A stretch of 44,019 bases of DNA from Verrucomicrobiota bacterium (lineage in GTDB: Bacteria > Verrucomicrobiota > Verrucomicrobiia > Verrucomicrobiales > Verrucomicrobiaceae), in the NCBI GenBank assembly GCA_026397715.1, contig JAPLUN010000292.1, positions 1 to 44,019 of the forward strand. The letters are read 5' to 3'. A model generated the notes under the pieces. It was not told where the DNA came from, made no database searches, and was given only the letters and a program-made list of their open reading frames with translations. Of this stretch, positions 1,703 to 8,573 are shown piece by piece (position 1 is the first letter of the stretch; every line of letters begins with the position of its first letter). The position numbers and the translations under genes were made by a program.

Positions 1703-2866
1703 TCAACAGCAGCTGCTGCCCGGCTTGCACCCGCCCTTGGTTTCCATCACCACTTCCCCATCGCGATGCGTCGGCGTGGGTTTGCCGGGGCGGAAATGTT
1801 CCTCGTGATCCAGCGTGGCTTTTAGGCCAAAGAAATTCAGCGTGGCTTCTGCCAGCCCGTCCTTCACCGCTTCCATCAGCGATGCGGGGTCGGCTTCGGC
1901 ACGCAGGTTCACGATCAACTGACCACCCGTGGTCGGCTCGTCCAATTCCATTCCAAGCTCAGCCACATAATCGCTCCGTACTAGATTGATGCTGGCCAGT
2001 TCACCGGCAATGCCATCGTCAGGACTGAAGGTCATTTTGAAATGAGCTATCTCGGCACCATTCTGCTGGAGTCGTGCCTGCACGATCAAGGCGAGCTGCT
2101 TGAGAAACGCATTCGCATCAAACTCATCATCCGCCTTCAGCGTCACCGTGGCATTCAGCCAGCCCAGCAGCGCCTCGCCGTCGGCATAGACTTCGTAATC
2201 AACCGCCATCGGATTGCGCCGCGCCTGCTCATCCGTCATCAAACTCGCAAACAGCTCATCCAGCCCCGTCTCCTGCCGTGGTGAGGCGATCACTATTTTG
2301 GCCAGCGGAAACTCCTTCGCCAGCACAGCGCGCAGATCCTCACGCTGCGCGTCCTCCACGAGATCGCTTTTGCTGATGACAATGATGTCCGCCTCTTCGA
2401 GCTGCTTCTTGAAGATGTAAGCCACCTTGGCGGAAAAGGTGCCGCCTTGATCCAGACCAAACACACGCCGCGCACGGATGGGATCCACCAGCACACTCAG
2501 AGGAGCGACCGTGAATGCATCGCCATACATGCGGCGCAGCGGATACGTCACAGTGGCCACGAGATCCGTGCAGCTTCCCACCGGCTCGGCGATGAAGACA
2601 TCCGGCTTCGCTTCATTCGCCAGCTTGCTCGCTGCGTCGACGAGGGTGTTGAAACGGCAACAGAAACATCCTCCCGCGATCTCCTCCGTCGCGTAGCCCT
2701 GCCCACGCAGCAGCTTGGTATCCACCAGACCGCCGGCTTGGTCGTTGGTGATGAGACCAACTCGGAGTCCCTGATCGCTGAGATGCTTGGCCAGACGGCC
2801 GACAGTAGTCGTTTTTCCGGCGCCAAGGAAACCGCCGATCATGATGTAACGTGCTTTAGTGGACAT
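1703..2866 (-). other. COG0523 GTPase module, possible internal start
   Basis: This is the 387-residue C-terminal part of the fusion above. It opens with ATG at 2866, immediately before the P-loop region (MSTKARYIMIGGFLGAGKTT), exactly where stand-alone G3E GTPases begin. The preceding bases lack a Shine-Dalgarno motif, and the translated linker (LVETPNLPTHS) looks like unconstrained sequence. It could therefore be a recently fused neighbour, a fusion with internal re-initiation, or two genes whose intervening stop codon has been lost. COG0523 proteins use GTP hydrolysis to load or sense metals through the CxCC motif. Confidence 0.45.
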
Positions 2867-3916
2867 GGAGTGGGTTGGAAGATTGGGAGTTTCGACAAGC
2901 GGCTGCAACAACGCAAACGACGATGCAGCCGTGTTTTTCAGCGACTGCCAGTCATGCATGTTCAGCGCCACCGGACTGCCTTTGACGAAACGGTTGCCAA
3001 AATCATCCTCCACCGCGTTTTGCGGTCCGAGGTAAACAACCGTTTGATCTTTTTTAGCCGACCGGAAGCCGGGCTTCACTGCGCTGATCAGCACCTCCCG
3101 CAGCGGCACGCCTTCGGCCTCGAAATAGCCCTTCTCGGAGAGCTTGGTGAAGCGCGCATTGCGGAATCCGACACAAACCAAAAGCGGTGCTAGGCTCGGA
3201 AAATCCGGCACAAACTGCACTACGGCAGCCGGGCCTGGCAAAGCCGGTCGCGAATCCACCAGCGGACGATCCGCGACGAGGCCATGCAAGGAGATGGTGC
3301 CGCCAGGTTTGAGAATGCGCAGCGCCTCTCTAAGCAAGGCGGGAAGGTCAATGCCGGTGGCATTGAGGGTGCCTTCCAGCACGACTTCCTGAACGCTGAA
3401 GGCATCCTGCGCGAGCGGCAGGGTGAGGGCTTCACCAAGACGGTGTGTCCACGTCACAGCAGGTGTGGCGGCTTCAGCCTCGCCCCCCATGAGAGTAGGC
3501 AGCTCACTTTCCGGCGCATGGTGGTCCCCATGATCGTCGAGGTCTTCATGGAAAACATACAGCTCCAGCAGCACCCCATCCGGGTCCCTCACCCAAAATT
3601 TCGTCTGGCGGGAGTAACAGCAGGCCACGCCGTCCTCGCGCAGGGTTTTGTGCCCGGCTTGTTCCAGCCGCAGCTGAATGGCGACGAGTTCCTCCGAGTC
3701 GAGCAGGCAGAGACCAACGTGATTGAGCGAACCTCCGCCACCCGCACGGCCAGGAATGAGCGAGAAAACCGTGGGGGGTGACTCGACTTCGAACTTGGCG
3801 TAGTCGGCGTGGTGCTTGGCGGGATCGAGGCCAAAGAGCACACGATAGAAGGCCACCGAGCGGGTCAGGTCGGAGACATTGAGGGAGAGATGAAATTTGC
3901 GGACGGGAGCGCTCAT
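1703..3916 (-). CDS. Three-part fusion: ArsI-like C-As lyase, ArsM-like half domain, COG0523 GTPase
   Basis: The start is ATG 3916, which overlaps the MFS stop as ATGA and gives 737 residues. Residues 1-125 form a vicinal-oxygen-chelate domain matching ArsI, the Fe(II) dioxygenase that cleaves carbon-arsenic bonds. H9, H66 and E118 sit where the metal ligands are expected, and the adjacent pair C99-C100 (ACCYSRQTKFWV) sits where ArsI binds trivalent organoarsenic. Residues about 140-345 resemble the second half of an ArsM-type methyltransferase (ALRILKPGGTISLHG, then VVYLGPQNAVEDDFG) but lack the SAM-binding glycine motif. Residues 351-737 are a G3E GTPase with P-loop GFLGAGKTT, GGCFCC metal-binding motif (Cys at 417, 419, 420) and a CxxxxxCC tail. 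No stop separates the parts. Metalloid substrate and metal delivery are inferred from family and context. Confidence 0.85.
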   Translation of the reverse strand: MSAPVRKFHLSLNVSDLTRSVAFYRVLFGLDPAKHHADYAKFEVESPPTVFSLIPGRAGGGGSLNHVGLCLLDSEELVAIQLRLEQAGHKTLREDGVACCYSRQTKFWVRDPDGVLLELYVFHEDLDDHGDHHAPESELPTLMGGEAEAATPAVTWTHRLGEALTLPLAQDAFSVQEVVLEGTLNATGIDLPALLREALRILKPGGTISLHGLVADRPLVDSRPALPGPAAVVQFVPDFPSLAPLLVCVGFRNARFTKLSEKGYFEAEGVPLREVLISAVKPGFRSAKKDQTVVYLGPQNAVEDDFGNRFVKGSPVALNMHDWQSLKNTAASSFALLQPLVETPNLPTHSMSTKARYIMIGGFLGAGKTTTVGRLAKHLSDQGLRVGLITNDQAGGLVDTKLLRGQGYATEEIAGGCFCCRFNTLVDAASKLANEAKPDVFIAEPVGSCTDLVATVTYPLRRMYGDAFTVAPLSVLVDPIRARRVFGLDQGGTFSAKVAYIFKKQLEEADIIVISKSDLVEDAQREDLRAVLAKEFPLAKIVIASPRQETGLDELFASLMTDEQARRNPMAVDYEVYADGEALLGWLNATVTLKADDEFDANAFLKQLALIVQARLQQNGAEIAHFKMTFSPDDGIAGELASINLVRSDYVAELGMELDEPTTGGQLIVNLRAEADPASLMEAVKDGLAEATLNFFGLKATLDHEEHFRPGKPTPTHRDGEVVMETKGGCKPGSSCC

Positions 3917-5115
3917 GTGGCAGACGGGCGCGGACGCAAAGTCAGCACCAGAAGGCCGAGTAGAACGCACATCGGCGCCGCAATCATCAGCGTATTTGCG
4001 TAACCATGCAAAAATCCTGCTCCGCGCTCCAGCAGCAGGGGGCCGAGTGCGGAAGCCAACACAGTACACATCTGTGCGACACCCTGGATGCGCCCAAGAT
4101 GACGTTTGCCAAAGGAGTCGCCCCAAATGGCGAAAAATGCGACGGTAATGATGCCGCCGGATATGCCCATGAGGGCCGCGAGAGTCCACATGCCAGCGCT
4201 GGTATGAATGAACTTGTAGGCGGCCAGCGCCGCCGCCTGAATGAACAAGGCCCCGCCCAGCCAGAAGCGGATGGGCCGCCAGCGGAGGCCCGCGCCGCAG
4301 ATCATCTGGCCGAGCAAAGCAATGATCGCAGAACCGGCGAGGAAATGATAAGCCGCCTCCTGATCAAACCCGCGCTCAGCCAGCAGCGCCTGATTGAACA
4401 GGCCGGTGGCGGTGGAGATGGCCGCGAAGGCTGATATGCCCGCGCTGTAAGCCCAGAACGCGGGAATGCGCATGCATTGCGCCAGTGTGAGATCGGCGTC
4501 CGTGCCGGCTTCGACCTGCTTTTCGGCACTCGTGTTGTGCAGCCAGAAGGCAACCGGCAGCACCACCAGGAGGCCGAGGCCGATGTCCCTCCATGCCACG
4601 CGCCAGCCGTGGTCTTTCACAATACCGCCGACAACGTAAAAAGAGAGCATGAACAACACGGACATCAGCACGGCATAAGCACCTGCGGCGGCACCGGAAT
4701 TGTGCCTGAAGGCACGACCTGCCACGGCGAGGCTGAGCACGGACATGGCCCCCTGCCCCAGCGCGCGCGTGAGCAGCACCAGAACGAAGAGACCCATGGC
4801 CGCCACATGCATGCCGCTCATCACAAGTACAACGAGGGCCAGTGCGGGCAGAAGCACGAGCGCGCCGGTTTTAAGCCCGCAGCGGTCCAGCCATGCCCCA
4901 ACGGGCAGGCACACCAAGGCACCGCCCAGTGTGGCCCAGAGATTGATCTGCGCGAAGGTGTCGCGTGAGAGCTGCAACTCCTGCAGCAGCGGCTCGGTGA
5001 CGAGCCCCAAACCATGCGAACGGCCCGGTAGAGTGGCGAGCATCAGCAAGGCGCCGGCGATGACCTGTGTCCACACGGCGGGCGCAGCGGAGGCGCTGTG
5101 TTTGGACTCGCTCAT
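3913..5115 (-). CDS. MFS transporter in the metalloid-type operon
   Basis: The 400-residue protein has the hydrophobic profile of a 12-helix major facilitator. It shows the helix 2-3 loop signature GAWLDRCGLKTG near residues 75-86 and a second-half equivalent (GLRWRPIRFW). The chosen start is ATG 5115, which overlaps the TGA of the PhyH gene as ATGA; the frame stays open to 5166 but that extension lies inside PhyH. Its own stop overlaps the start of the ArsI-like fusion in the same way, so the three products are probably translationally coupled. The likely role is export or import of the compound handled by its neighbours across the inner membrane. Substrate and direction cannot be read from sequence; efflux of a cleaved trivalent product is an inference. 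Confidence 0.85.
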   Translation of the reverse strand: MSESKHSASAAPAVWTQVIAGALLMLATLPGRSHGLGLVTEPLLQELQLSRDTFAQINLWATLGGALVCLPVGAWLDRCGLKTGALVLLPALALVVLVMSGMHVAAMGLFVLVLLTRALGQGAMSVLSLAVAGRAFRHNSGAAAGAYAVLMSVLFMLSFYVVGGIVKDHGWRVAWRDIGLGLLVVLPVAFWLHNTSAEKQVEAGTDADLTLAQCMRIPAFWAYSAGISAFAAISTATGLFNQALLAERGFDQEAAYHFLAGSAIIALLGQMICGAGLRWRPIRFWLGGALFIQAAALAAYKFIHTSAGMWTLAALMGISGGIITVAFFAIWGDSFGKRHLGRIQGVAQMCTVLASALGPLLLERGAGFLHGYANTLMIAAPMCVLLGLLVLTLRPRPSAT

Positions 5116-5873
5116 CGGAAATAGGTTTCCGTTTTGCCATACTCCGCGTAGCGCTCCTGCAGCCACTGATGGAAGAAAGTGTAATGCGCGCTGCGCACGT
5201 CGCCACCATCACGCGCTGCATTGAAGCTGAGGTAGAGCAGGCGGCGGGAGTGACCAGATTTGTTGGGCGCGGAGCGGTGCGGCGTGAAGCCGCTGAAGAA
5301 GGCCACATCGCCAGGCTGGAGTTCAAGCACGACGCTTTGGCTCAAATCCACCTGATCCTCCTTCAGCGTGTGGTACATGCCGTCACGCGGACTCATGCAG
5401 CCCTGCTGATGGTAGCCGGGGAAGACCTCCGTGGCGCCGCTGTCAGCATCTGAAGGATCGATGGCCACGATGACCGTGAGAAACGAATCCGGAAAACTCT
5501 CCCAGGAGATGTAGTCCTGGTGCATGTCGTAACCCTTCGCACCCGGTGGCTTGAAGATGAGCTTGTCTTTGAAAAGGAAGGCGGGCTCTCCGTAGAGCTG
5601 GGCCGCCATGTCGCTCAGCATAGGCGAACGGGCGATGCGTTCGCACGCAGGACTGATGTCGATCACCGGATCAAAGCAGTCGAAACGGCACTCGCCGGTC
5701 TCCGCATGATCCTGCCAACGGCATCGAATGTTGTTCACGTCGATGAGCGGTTTCAGCTCCGTGAGCCGCGTGGCTTCGTTTTGGAGTTCGGCAGCTTCAG
5801 CCGAGAAGACGCCGTGTGCCGTGACAAAGCCATCACGATGATAGGCTGCGATTTGTTCTGGAGTGAGTGGCAT
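5112..5873 (-). CDS. PhyH-family Fe(II)/2-oxoglutarate dioxygenase
   Basis: The 253-residue protein matches the phytanoyl-CoA dioxygenase family. An N-terminal YHRDGFV motif (residues 11-17) is followed by the iron-binding HxD in YDMHQDYISW and by a distal His in FTPHRSAPNKSGHSRR, with the trailing Arg placed to hold 2-oxoglutarate. PhyH enzymes hydroxylate small molecules, lipids, phosphonates or natural products. This one lies 77 bases downstream of the TonB receptor gene and overlaps the MFS gene by four bases, so it most likely acts on the imported compound before the ArsI-like step. No acyl-CoA gene is nearby, which argues against a lipid catabolic role. The substrate is unknown. Confidence 0.88.
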   Translation of the reverse strand: MPLTPEQIAAYHRDGFVTAHGVFSAEAAELQNEATRLTELKPLIDVNNIRCRWQDHAETGECRFDCFDPVIDISPACERIARSPMLSDMAAQLYGEPAFLFKDKLIFKPPGAKGYDMHQDYISWESFPDSFLTVIVAIDPSDADSGATEVFPGYHQQGCMSPRDGMYHTLKEDQVDLSQSVVLELQPGDVAFFSGFTPHRSAPNKSGHSRRLLYLSFNAARDGGDVRSAHYTFFHQWLQERYAEYGKTETYFR

Positions 5874-5950
5874 GGGAAGAGAGGTAAACGCACATCGGCG
5901 GCTGACAGCGTGTGATCGCCATCAACCGCCGGTGCACCAACTTTAACCGA

Positions 5951-8146
5951 CTAAAATTTGATGCCCGCGCGGACGCCGAAAGTCATCGGAGCACCGCTTT
6001 CACCGAGGTAGCCTGAGGGAGCGGAAGCCGGGTTAGGATAAGGAATGGCGATGGGCACATACCGGGTGTTGAAGGCGTTGTTCAAGAAAAACTCGCTATA
6101 CCAGGACTGCCTGCGGATACCGACGCGGAAGTTTGCCAGCGTGTAGGCATTCTGTCCGGCGGCATTGGAGCTGTCATAGACAAAGCCGCCGAGGAACTGC
6201 ACGTCACCACGAGCATAGAGAGTCCAGCCCTGACTCAGCTCCCAGTTGTACTGGCTGCCGACTGCCGCGGTGTAGTTCGGCGTGTAGGGTACTTTGTTGC
6301 CGCCAATGGCTGCGCCGCTGTCCATGCTGCCGGAGAGGAAGCGTGCAGTCTGCAGACCAGCGCTGCCGAACACCGTCCAACTGGAAGTCGCCTGATAGTT
6401 GGCTGAAAGCTCCAGACCCTTGGACACTGCGTTGCCGGCATTGATGACGTCGAAGGTGGCGAGGGAGGCGGCGTTGGGCGTGTTGAGCTGGAGGTTTCTC
6501 CAGTCGGTGTAGAAGGCGGCGAGTTGGAAGCCGAGCTTGTCCTGCAGGGCACGGCCTTTCAGACCGATCTCATAGTTCCAGCTACGCTCCTGGTCGTAAT
6601 TGGTGCGCCCGGTCACTGAAGCGGTGTTGAAGCCGCCTGCCTTGTAGCCACCGGAAAAACCGGCGTAGGCCATAAGACCTGGCGTGAAACGGTAGGCGAT
6701 GGATGCCTGAGGCGTCACCTGGCTGTACGTTTTCGCTGTCCGTGAGGAGGCATCGAGCGAAGGCAGGAACGGAGGAGCGATGGGATTGCGGCTGGCGGAC
6801 AGATCTGCCTGCTTGTGTTCATAGTCCCAGCGCAGGCCGGCGGTGATGTCCAGCTTCTTCCAGGCCGTCAGAGTGGACTGGGCATAGAGGCCCATGCCCT
6901 GATCATGCAGCGCGGCACTGGTGTTGGTGGTGTTTGCTGGAATGAAGACAGGGAAGAAGACATTGTCCTGATTCTGCGCGGTGGTCTGCTGATACGTCTG
7001 GTCAAAGAAGAACGCACCGGCCTGCCAGGTGAGGAAGGCCGAATCGCTGAGGGTGATCGGAACATTCTTGGGATTGGAGAAACGGAACTCCTGGCTCCAG
7101 GTGGTCTGCTGCTGGCGGTTGTTGCGCAGCAGGAAGGTGTTGCCCGGTATGAAGTTGAACGTCGAATAGTCGAGGTCCGTGACATCCTGCGTTTTCCACC
7201 AGACCAGACCGGTGGTGGAGGTGAAGTCGAAGGAATCACCGTGCCAGGTGACCTGCAGAGTAGGCATCAAAACATCACGCTTGGTGAAGCCGCCGAAGTC
7301 GCGGGCGGACTGGCGTGGCGTGGCACGCAACTGCGCCACATCATTCAGTGCGTAGTCGCCGTCACGGGCGGTTTCGCCTGCGATGATGAGACGCACTTCC
7401 AGTTGTTTGGTCGGGGTCCAAAGGAACTGCGTCTTGCCAAACCACGAACCACGATTGTCGATCGGCTGACCGTTGACGGTGTTCTTGGTGTAACCGTCGC
7501 GCTGATTGTAGCCGCCCATGAAGCTGAAGCCCAGCACGTCTTCAATGAGAGCGCCACTGACCCGTCCACGATAGTCCTGCAGGTTGTAGTTGCCGATCAT
7601 GGTCTGCAGTTCGCCTTCCCAGCCCTGCAGGGTGGGGCGACGGCTGGTGATGTTGACAAGACCTCCGGCGGTGTTCCGGCCGTAGAGCGCACCGACAGGC
7701 CCGCGCACCATGTCGATCTGCTCAACATCGATCAGCATGATGCTGGAAGAGTTGCCATTGAACTGCGGCACGCCGTCGATGTAGGTGGTGACGCCCGGAT
7801 TGGTCGGGGATCCGCCGATGCCTCGGAAACGGGGAGTGCTGATGGCACGTGCACTGAACTCGGTGATATAAGTGTTCGGCGCGTACATAGCCGCATCCTT
7901 CACAGTATACATGCCGGCATCCTGAAGCGTCTTGCGCGGGACGGCAGTGGCGCTGATCGGCGCTTCGAGCAGGCTCTTGGTCGACAGCTTTGGCGCGGAA
8001 ATGACGATCTCATTGAGATCCACCGGCTTGGTTTGTTCTTCTTTTTTCACGTCTCCCTGAGCCAAGGCGGAGCAGGTGGACATCAGAGCGGTCACGGCAA
8101 GAAGACGTGACAGCCCACAACGCGGGGATGAGTTCGGGAGAATCAT
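5951..8146 (-). CDS. TonB-dependent outer-membrane receptor
   Basis: The 731-residue protein has a signal peptide (about residues 1-29, ending SALAQ) and a TonB-box-like stretch VDLNEIVISAP near 42-52. A plug domain follows (APISATAVPRKTLQDAG; TPRFRGIGG; VEQIDMVRGPVGALYGRNTA), then a long beta-barrel ending in Phe (TFGVRAGIKF), as outer-membrane proteins do. It resembles receptors of the FyuA/pesticin and related groups used for siderophores and small organic ligands. It is the first gene of the minus-strand operon and diverges from the ArsR-family gene, so ArsR control of uptake is likely. The ligand is not identifiable; an organometalloid or a metal complex is inferred from the downstream genes. 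Confidence 0.9.
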   Translation of the reverse strand: MILPNSSPRCGLSRLLAVTALMSTCSALAQGDVKKEEQTKPVDLNEIVISAPKLSTKSLLEAPISATAVPRKTLQDAGMYTVKDAAMYAPNTYITEFSARAISTPRFRGIGGSPTNPGVTTYIDGVPQFNGNSSSIMLIDVEQIDMVRGPVGALYGRNTAGGLVNITSRRPTLQGWEGELQTMIGNYNLQDYRGRVSGALIEDVLGFSFMGGYNQRDGYTKNTVNGQPIDNRGSWFGKTQFLWTPTKQLEVRLIIAGETARDGDYALNDVAQLRATPRQSARDFGGFTKRDVLMPTLQVTWHGDSFDFTSTTGLVWWKTQDVTDLDYSTFNFIPGNTFLLRNNRQQQTTWSQEFRFSNPKNVPITLSDSAFLTWQAGAFFFDQTYQQTTAQNQDNVFFPVFIPANTTNTSAALHDQGMGLYAQSTLTAWKKLDITAGLRWDYEHKQADLSASRNPIAPPFLPSLDASSRTAKTYSQVTPQASIAYRFTPGLMAYAGFSGGYKAGGFNTASVTGRTNYDQERSWNYEIGLKGRALQDKLGFQLAAFYTDWRNLQLNTPNAASLATFDVINAGNAVSKGLELSANYQATSSWTVFGSAGLQTARFLSGSMDSGAAIGGNKVPYTPNYTAAVGSQYNWELSQGWTLYARGDVQFLGGFVYDSSNAAGQNAYTLANFRVGIRRQSWYSEFFLNNAFNTRYVPIAIPYPNPASAPSGYLGESGAPMTFGVRAGIKF

Positions 8147-8164
8147 GGCGGCGCGTGTTTTATC

Positions 8165-8188
8165 TTATTTGCGCATGTTGGCAATTAT
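8165..8188. promoter_or_regulatory. Candidate ArsR-type operator in the divergent promoter region
   Basis: The 103 bases between the TonB-receptor start (8146) and the ArsR start (8250) include an AT-rich imperfect dyad. TTATTTGC (8165-8172) and GCAATTAT (8181-8188) are separated by eight bases, with six of eight positions complementary. This is the size and AT character expected of an ArsR/SmtB operator. No convincing -35/-10 pair was seen, so the assignment rests on position and symmetry only. Confidence 0.4.
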
Positions 8189-8249
8189 TATTTCACTTCC
8201 GTTCGCCGGGATTCTTGCGGGAGCAAGGCGATCTGCTAATGATCAAGGC

Positions 8250-8573
8250 ATGCCATCACGCACCGTGACACGTTCATTCGACTGCCTCACCGCCATGCGC
8301 GCGCTGGGTGAGCCGACACGTCTCCGTCTGGTGCGTCTCCTCATCGGTGGCGCTAAGCCGGTGACCGAACTGTGTGAAACTCTGAACGTCACGCCCTACA
8401 ACGTCTCCAAGCACCTGCGGGTCCTCAAAGAAGCATGCCTGCTCAAAGTCGAGAAGCAGGGTCAGCAGCGCATCTACGCGCTCGCGGAAGCGTTCAGCGA
8501 AAAACTCGCGAAGAACTCCAACACCCTCGACCTCGGCTGCTGCCAGTTTCATTTCGATAAGCTGCCTGAGTAG
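8250..8573 (+). CDS. ArsR-family winged-helix regulator with C-terminal Cys pair
   Basis: The 107-residue protein is chosen from ATG 8250. The longer open frame to 8076 runs into the divergent receptor gene and its extra residues do not resemble ArsR proteins. The core LGEPTRLRLVRLLIGGAKPVTELC and VTPYNVSKHLRVLKEACLL is the classic ArsR/SmtB winged helix. Cysteines at 12, 42, 63, 97 and 98 are candidate sensors. The C-terminal GCCQFHF pair recalls the C-terminal Cys ligands of the Acidithiobacillus-type arsenite sensor, although the third Cys of that site is absent. ArsR proteins repress DNA until trivalent arsenic, antimony or a metal binds. It probably represses the divergent receptor operon and itself. 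The sulfatase gene begins 47 bases downstream and may be co-transcribed. Confidence 0.88.
   Translation: MPSRTVTRSFDCLTAMRALGEPTRLRLVRLLIGGAKPVTELCETLNVTPYNVSKHLRVLKEACLLKVEKQGQQRIYALAEAFSEKLAKNSNTLDLGCCQFHFDKLPE

Follow-up and report, generated by a model that had tools for sequence, protein, structure and literature searches.

A conserved PhyH-MFS-ArsI:ArsM-C module linked to ArsR in Verrucomicrobiota and Planctomycetota as a good candidate for a hitherto undescribed route of organic-arsenic breakdown

The described systems closest to the locus reported here include the ArsI/CadI family, the textbook ars operon and PhnY-dependent oxidative phosphonate breakdown. ArsI/CadI proteins (NF041414; structures 5d4f and 5c4p) combine a VOC fold with a vicinal Cys pair, metal-ligand positions and a lysine following the pair; the textbook operon (arsR-acr3-arsC with arsI) unites ArsR-type control, a C-As lyase and a transporter; in the PhnY system (NF052437), hydroxylation beside the heteroatom precedes cleavage, with the HD-domain protein PhnZ as partner. 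To our knowledge, no bacterial genes have been assigned to the breakdown of arsenosugars or arsenobetaine. According to PMC10579292, the way in which dimethylarsenate is demethylated 'remains unclear', unlike the demethylation of MAs(III) by ArsI.

In the 44,019-nucleotide stretch of DNA analysed here (the window), five genes encode an ArsR regulator, a TonB receptor, a PhyH oxygenase, an MFS transporter and a fusion protein, each backed by Pfam or NCBIfam profile matches (Table 1). The ArsI domain shares all the features listed above with the ArsI/CadI family, but differs by its fusion to the C-terminal half of ArsM (ArsM-C) and to a COG0523 GTPase, and by its PhyH and MFS partners. With respect to the textbook ars operon, the window's genome, the locus included, has no detectable acr3 or arsB; the locus does not match that operon's make-up of arsB or acr3 efflux plus arsC, and PhyH, another type of MFS and an LGCC-tailed ArsR are added. 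The logic of the PhnY system would match, but the partner here is ArsI, and the scanned neighbours yielded no phosphonate genes. The C-terminal half is shared with the ArsM/AS3MT arsenite methyltransferases by profile and fold, whereas the SAM-binding half is lacking and alignment A7 holds no invariant cysteine. Similarly, the G3E GTPase with its GGCFCC motif is common to COG0523 proteins (CobW, YjiA, ZigA), whereas the C-terminal region is not recognised by Pfam, the domain is fused to ArsI, and its unfused state is divergent with ArsR.

Table 1. Features of the locus, with positions in the window
Feature	Position	Strand	Basis
Three-domain fusion, 737 aa	1703-3916	-	ArsI + ArsM C-terminal half + COG0523 GTPase
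ArsI (C-As lyase) domain, residues 1-140	3497-3916	-	NF041414 2e-33; structures 5d4f/5c4p 3e-31
ArsM C-terminal half, about residues 149-345	2882-3472	-	profile match 8xt7; fold matches 4fr0, 6cx6, 5evj
Fusion linker, about residues 330-350	2867-2929	-	leader alignment + in-frame translations
COG0523/CobW-type GTPase, residues 351-737	1703-2866	-	PF02492 (cobW) 2e-23; alignment A6
ATGA overlap MFS/fusion	3913-3916	-	sequence
MFS transporter, 400 aa	3913-5115	-	PF07690 (MFS_1) 3e-30; NF049980 3e-8, below cut-off
ATGA overlap PhyH/MFS	5112-5115	-	sequence
PhyH-type Fe(II)/2-oxoglutarate oxygenase, 253 aa	5112-5873	-	PF05721 3e-26
TonB-dependent outer-membrane receptor, 731 aa	5951-8146	-	PF00593 + PF07715
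Probable ArsR operator, TAATTGCC-N6-CGCAAATA	8166-8187	.	palindrome conserved across loci
ArsR/SmtB regulator, 107 aa	8250-8573	+	HTH_metalloreg NF033788 6e-21; HTH_5 5e-10

The open reading frames and the profile matches bear out the genes, the domains and the divergent ArsR of the preliminary description, and direct reading of the sequence confirmed the ATGA coupling that it had claimed for the last three genes. Both overlaps are also kept in two relatives, and a 77-bp gap, with no overlap, separates the TonB receptor gene from that of PhyH. The ArsR start was placed at the ATG at 8250, the start proposed by the ORF caller (8076) being too early and overlapping the tonB start. Comparison with the relative G013 gave dN/dS values of 0.02-0.14 for every cassette gene or domain and for CobW, indicating that all of them are under purifying selection. 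No Rfam match was found anywhere in the window.

The fusion is a single open frame in the window and in three relatives (G002, G013, G032), and its three parts also form one open frame in G237. In the ArsI domain, which matches Glyoxalase (2e-11) and scores 115 bits against a curated cut-off of 116 for ArsI_CadI_VOC (NF041414), we located H9, H66, C99, C100, K106 and E118; H9, H66, C99, C100 and E118 are invariant or nearly so in alignment A3, as expected for the vicinal Cys and metal ligands of the VOC fold. The label 'ArsM-half' given to the second domain is justified by its profile match and by the presence of ArsM structures among its top fold matches (4fr0, 7e-10). Since the SAM-binding N-terminal half is absent, the protein does not qualify as a full ArsM methyltransferase, and ArsM-C works at most as a binding domain. 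The AlphaFold model of these first two domains (mean pLDDT 80) has the C-As lyase 5v0f and ArsM 4fr0 as top structure matches; with a pTM of 0.46, the relative placement of the domains in it is not reliable. The third domain is a P-loop GTPase carrying the CxCC motif in 7/7 sequences of alignment A6, with YjiA (1nij) as its nearest structure. The fusion also hints at what a COG0523 GTPase may serve, few partners being known for this family.

PhyH carries the HxD...H iron triad and the 2-oxoglutarate-binding Arg of Fe(II)/2OG oxygenases (H118, D120, H199 and R210, invariant in the ten relatives of alignment A4), and its AlphaFold model (pLDDT 92) matches Fe/2OG hydroxylases. The nearest NCBIfam model is the methylphosphonate hydroxylase NF052437 (2e-26), where PhyH obtains 93 bits and does not reach the curated PhnY score of 500, so that the similarity would denote kinship only. 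This low score, together with amino-acid and ectoine hydroxylases as nearest solved relatives, implies that the PhyH substrate may be something other than an organoarsenical.

ArsR scores 74 bits against a cut-off of 55 for NF033788, and the HTH, the Cys ligands and the operator palindrome agree with its family membership. Its C-terminal tail reads LDLGCCQFHF, and a tail of the L(D/N)(L/F/I)GCC type ends 9/9 module-linked planctomycete ArsR proteins found and none (0) of the ArsR proteins linked to ordinary ArsI. The palindrome between arsR and tonB, whose genus consensus is TATTTGCC-N6-GGCAAATA, is probably the ArsR operator, judging from its conservation: of 22 loci examined, nearly all keep it in the interval that separates arsR from cobW or from tonB. 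At 2 mismatches the pattern occurs at 3 places in the window's own genome, the reversed-pattern control giving 1. A different gene set stands between an LGCC ArsR and COG0523 in L056 (8001-12629) and also in L046: a LysR-type HTH protein (ModE-like by eye), a TonB receptor and a protein with a molybdopterin-binding domain.

Across 84,980 species genomes, the scan for ArsI:ArsM-C returned substantial matches at 4 Verrucomicrobial and 14 Planctomycetota loci, plus one weak match in Chloroflexi. PhyH, MFS and ArsI:ArsM-C follow one another in one order and on one strand at no fewer than 11 Planctomycetota loci (at least L089, L090, L092-L094, L096, L097, L099 and L116-L118), and L102 shows the arrangement ArsR-PhyH-ArsI:ArsM-C. 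As a control, this PhyH or MFS was sought at loci of ordinary ArsI and was present at 0/15. The reciprocal test, on a sample of 392 Planctomycetota genomes, found full ArsI:ArsM-C in five (G436, G437, G576, G677, G789) and PhyH above 380 bits in exactly the same five, each time no more than some 2 kb away; the next-best PhyH score was 226 bits. The match is partly by construction, the A3-A5 profiles deriving from linked genes; three of the five genomes (G576, G677, G789) took no part in profile building and are independent, and in these PhyH and MFS adjoin ArsI:ArsM-C (L116-L118). Therefore, conserved order, the 15-locus control and the reciprocal search rule out a chance neighbourhood, and we conclude that PhyH-MFS-ArsI:ArsM-C is a conserved module in two phyla.

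Of the neighbours with which the fusion gene had been said to form a unit, PhyH and MFS are accordingly retained by both locus comparison and reciprocal search. The gene neighbourhoods in relatives rule out the TonB receptor and CobW as core parts: the receptor is present in the Verrucomicrobial copies and in one Planctomycetota copy, being mostly missing from the latter phylum, and most relatives have the ArsR-COG0523 pair but no cassette. A gene for a DUF1559 pseudopilin-like protein lies directly upstream of PhyH in 9/12 Planctomycetota loci (L090, L092-L094, L096, L097, L116-L118), and its product could be the equivalent, at the cell surface, of the receptor found in Verrucomicrobia; DUF1559 genes are common in Planctomycetota, so the weight of this recurrence is uncertain. 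Full ArsI:ArsM-C was found on 0 of 72,556 plasmids, where only ordinary ArsI occurs, and the PhyH matches on plasmids are at most 32% identical among the matches listed. PhyH relatives in other Verrucomicrobiota (L075-L077, 34-39%) have no ArsI nearby. L091, L098 and L100 carry ArsI:ArsM-C in tandem, and in some of these copies a single Cys replaces the pair; L091, from Limnoglobus roseus, has an MFS gene as well. In L091 and L098, one ArsI of the tandem has CGYAKQ, not CCYA, one Cys of the pair being missing.

ArsR and COG0523 are present in most genomes of the window's genus; in 17 loci (16 in the genus, one in the same order), the two genes are divergent and immediately adjacent, mostly with the palindrome between them. 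In this genus, the divergent ArsR-COG0523 pair with its conserved operator is the older arrangement, and the cassette lies between the two genes in few species. The cassette lies between the operator and cobW in the window, G002, G013, G032 and JANYCZ010000021 (L087), and G237 has the cassette with no ArsR beside it. In L087 (8356-10000), the MFS is 58% identical, against 90% for PhyH and 95% for ArsI, and a 450-bp gap precedes ArsI; this transporter seems to have been exchanged.

The leader alignment shows the linker bases of the fusion in cassette-free relatives too, ahead of a cobW gene that stands alone. In five genomes (G001, G012, G027, G029, G030), the short cobW leader contains, in frame, a sequence such as DASSLSALLQPLVETPN, which corresponds to AASSFALLQPLVETPN in the fusion; in most of those leaders this sequence comes just after a TAA. 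Cassette-free congeners (L032-L036) contain an in-frame ArsM-C scrap about 100 bp upstream of the stand-alone cobW. The linker peptide AASSFALLQP can be aligned to the last residues of Planctomycetota ArsM-C, and together with the in-frame scraps cut off by a TAA this fits cassette loss better; a scar left by that loss is the preferred reading of the scrap. A linker arising by translation of the old cobW leader is disfavoured, in view of the match of AASSFALLQP to the Planctomycetota ArsM-C end and of the TAA that cuts it off in most of the cassette-free relatives carrying it. A single clade of fused CobW genes was not seen: fused copies are spread over three parts of the CobW tree, consistent with loss or exchange having happened repeatedly.

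The link to arsenic is reinforced by two Planctomycetota copies of the module lying beside a textbook arsR-acr3-arsC-arsI operon. Specifically, L116 has the order arsI, arsC, acr3, arsR, LGCC ArsR and then the module, with 369 bits for acr3, 147 bits for arsC (below its cut-off of 174) and 140 bits for the ordinary arsI; in L117, the module, ArsI and the regulators are laid out in the same way. The initial view of an arsenic-linked, apparently undescribed gene set is upheld by these copies and by the recurrence of the module. In mostly non-subscription literature, which is weak evidence of absence, we found no described ars operon with this gene set and no PhyH in an ars context, and COG0523 appeared with arsenic only in passing mentions. 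The gene set is new as an ars-system variant with an unusual enzyme partner.

Taken together, these data make the module a good candidate for an undescribed organic-arsenic breakdown route, and we consider it somewhat probable that the PhyH-MFS-ArsI:ArsM-C core is a pathway of Planctomycetota and Verrucomicrobiota, controlled by LGCC-ArsR, for the oxidative breakdown of organoarsenicals. In such a pathway, ArsR would occupy the conserved operator and be released by a trivalent arsenical; the TonB receptor in Verrucomicrobia, and possibly the DUF1559 surface protein in Planctomycetota, would help the substrate to reach the cell, and MFS would move a small anionic organoarsenical, or a product of it, over the inner membrane. 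PhyH, with its conserved active-site residues, may then hydroxylate the carbon adjoining arsenic, as PhnY does on methylphosphonate, and, acting after PhyH, the ArsI domain, whose residues and fold are in place, would cut the C-As bond. ArsM-C, given its fold, may hold or pass on the trivalent arsenical, and the fused COG0523 domain, from its family role and the fusion itself, would supply ArsI, and perhaps PhyH as well, with a metal, Fe(II) being the likeliest. In the window's genus, the cassette lies between the two genes of the older ArsR-COG0523 pair, downstream of its operator. An aerobic catabolism in which a biological organoarsenical (for example dimethylarsenate or what results from arsenosugar breakdown) is imported, oxidised by the dedicated 2OG oxygenase and cut at its C-As bond, by analogy with oxidative phosphonate use, is a tentative extension that we hold to be rather unlikely; if true, it would supply the missing genes of organoarsenical demethylation. 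If PhyH acts on an arsenical, this would be a new pathway. With a conserved unit of oxygenase and C-As lyase in two phyla whose members abound in the environment, the question of organoarsenical demethylation becomes directly testable.

The receptor, in which plug and beta-barrel domains were found (barrel profile 6e-39), has as its nearest solved structure the pesticin receptor FyuA (4epa, 2e-31), with CntO and FoxA also among the nearest. Since these are metallophore receptors, organoarsenical capture is only one of two readings, and the receptor may instead help to provide PhyH and ArsI with iron. It is quite possible, if short of an even chance, that it imports a metallophore and is unrelated to arsenic, with COG0523 delivering iron to PhyH and ArsI, which are both enzymes of the iron type. 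The CxCC motif of the COG0523 metallochaperones (PMC7689651) is present here. Against this speak the position of the receptor gene under ArsR control, within the cassette and not among iron genes, and its scarcity in Planctomycetota copies. This reading overlaps with oxidative organoarsenical breakdown, as the remaining module may still act on arsenic.

It is unlikely, in our judgement, that the locus confers ordinary MAs(III) resistance, with ArsI as demethylase, MFS as efflux pump, PhyH as an unrelated or repair accessory, and no uptake or catabolism. ArsI chemistry on MAs(III) is established (PMC10579292), and MFS transporters are known in ars operons (PMC4435449). No match to acr3 or arsB was found in the whole assembled genome of the window's organism (93% complete), so that their absence, already remarked at the locus, extends over that assembly and the role of pump could fall to MFS; what would become of the arsenite set free in such a genome is a point against oxidative organoarsenical breakdown. 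However, within the module PhyH shows the same tight conservation as ArsI, and it is absent at ordinary ArsI loci, the TonB receptor points toward uptake, and MFS matches no named NCBIfam arsenic exporter; its nearest named families, distantly, are lactate and oxalate/formate transporters, which makes uptake possible as well as export. It is improbable that the locus makes and exports an arsenic-containing product, with ArsI protecting the producer: one operon does combine an ArsM-like half with an oxygenase and an MFS carrier, and the ArsM half weakly matches (5e-6) the ArsM model of arsinothricin, a known arsenic antibiotic, but the ArsM part is without its SAM-binding half, no C-As bond-forming gene was recognised among the part of the neighbouring genes scanned, and the fixed partner is a C-As lyase.

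As for COG0523 in Planctomycetota, CobW lies beside the module in only two loci (L089, L118), and that of L089 seems to belong to another cluster; the CobW homologues of other members of the phylum (L113-L115) do not sit with ArsR. In L089 (11600-18800) and L114 (6900-13400), the COG0523 homologue is near genes for a GcvH-like protein and an Fe-S protein and squalene-hopene-cyclase-like genes. In two Planctomycetota genomes (L113, 2693-5243; L114, 6901-9335), it is divergent from a gene whose product resembles DegT-type aminotransferases.
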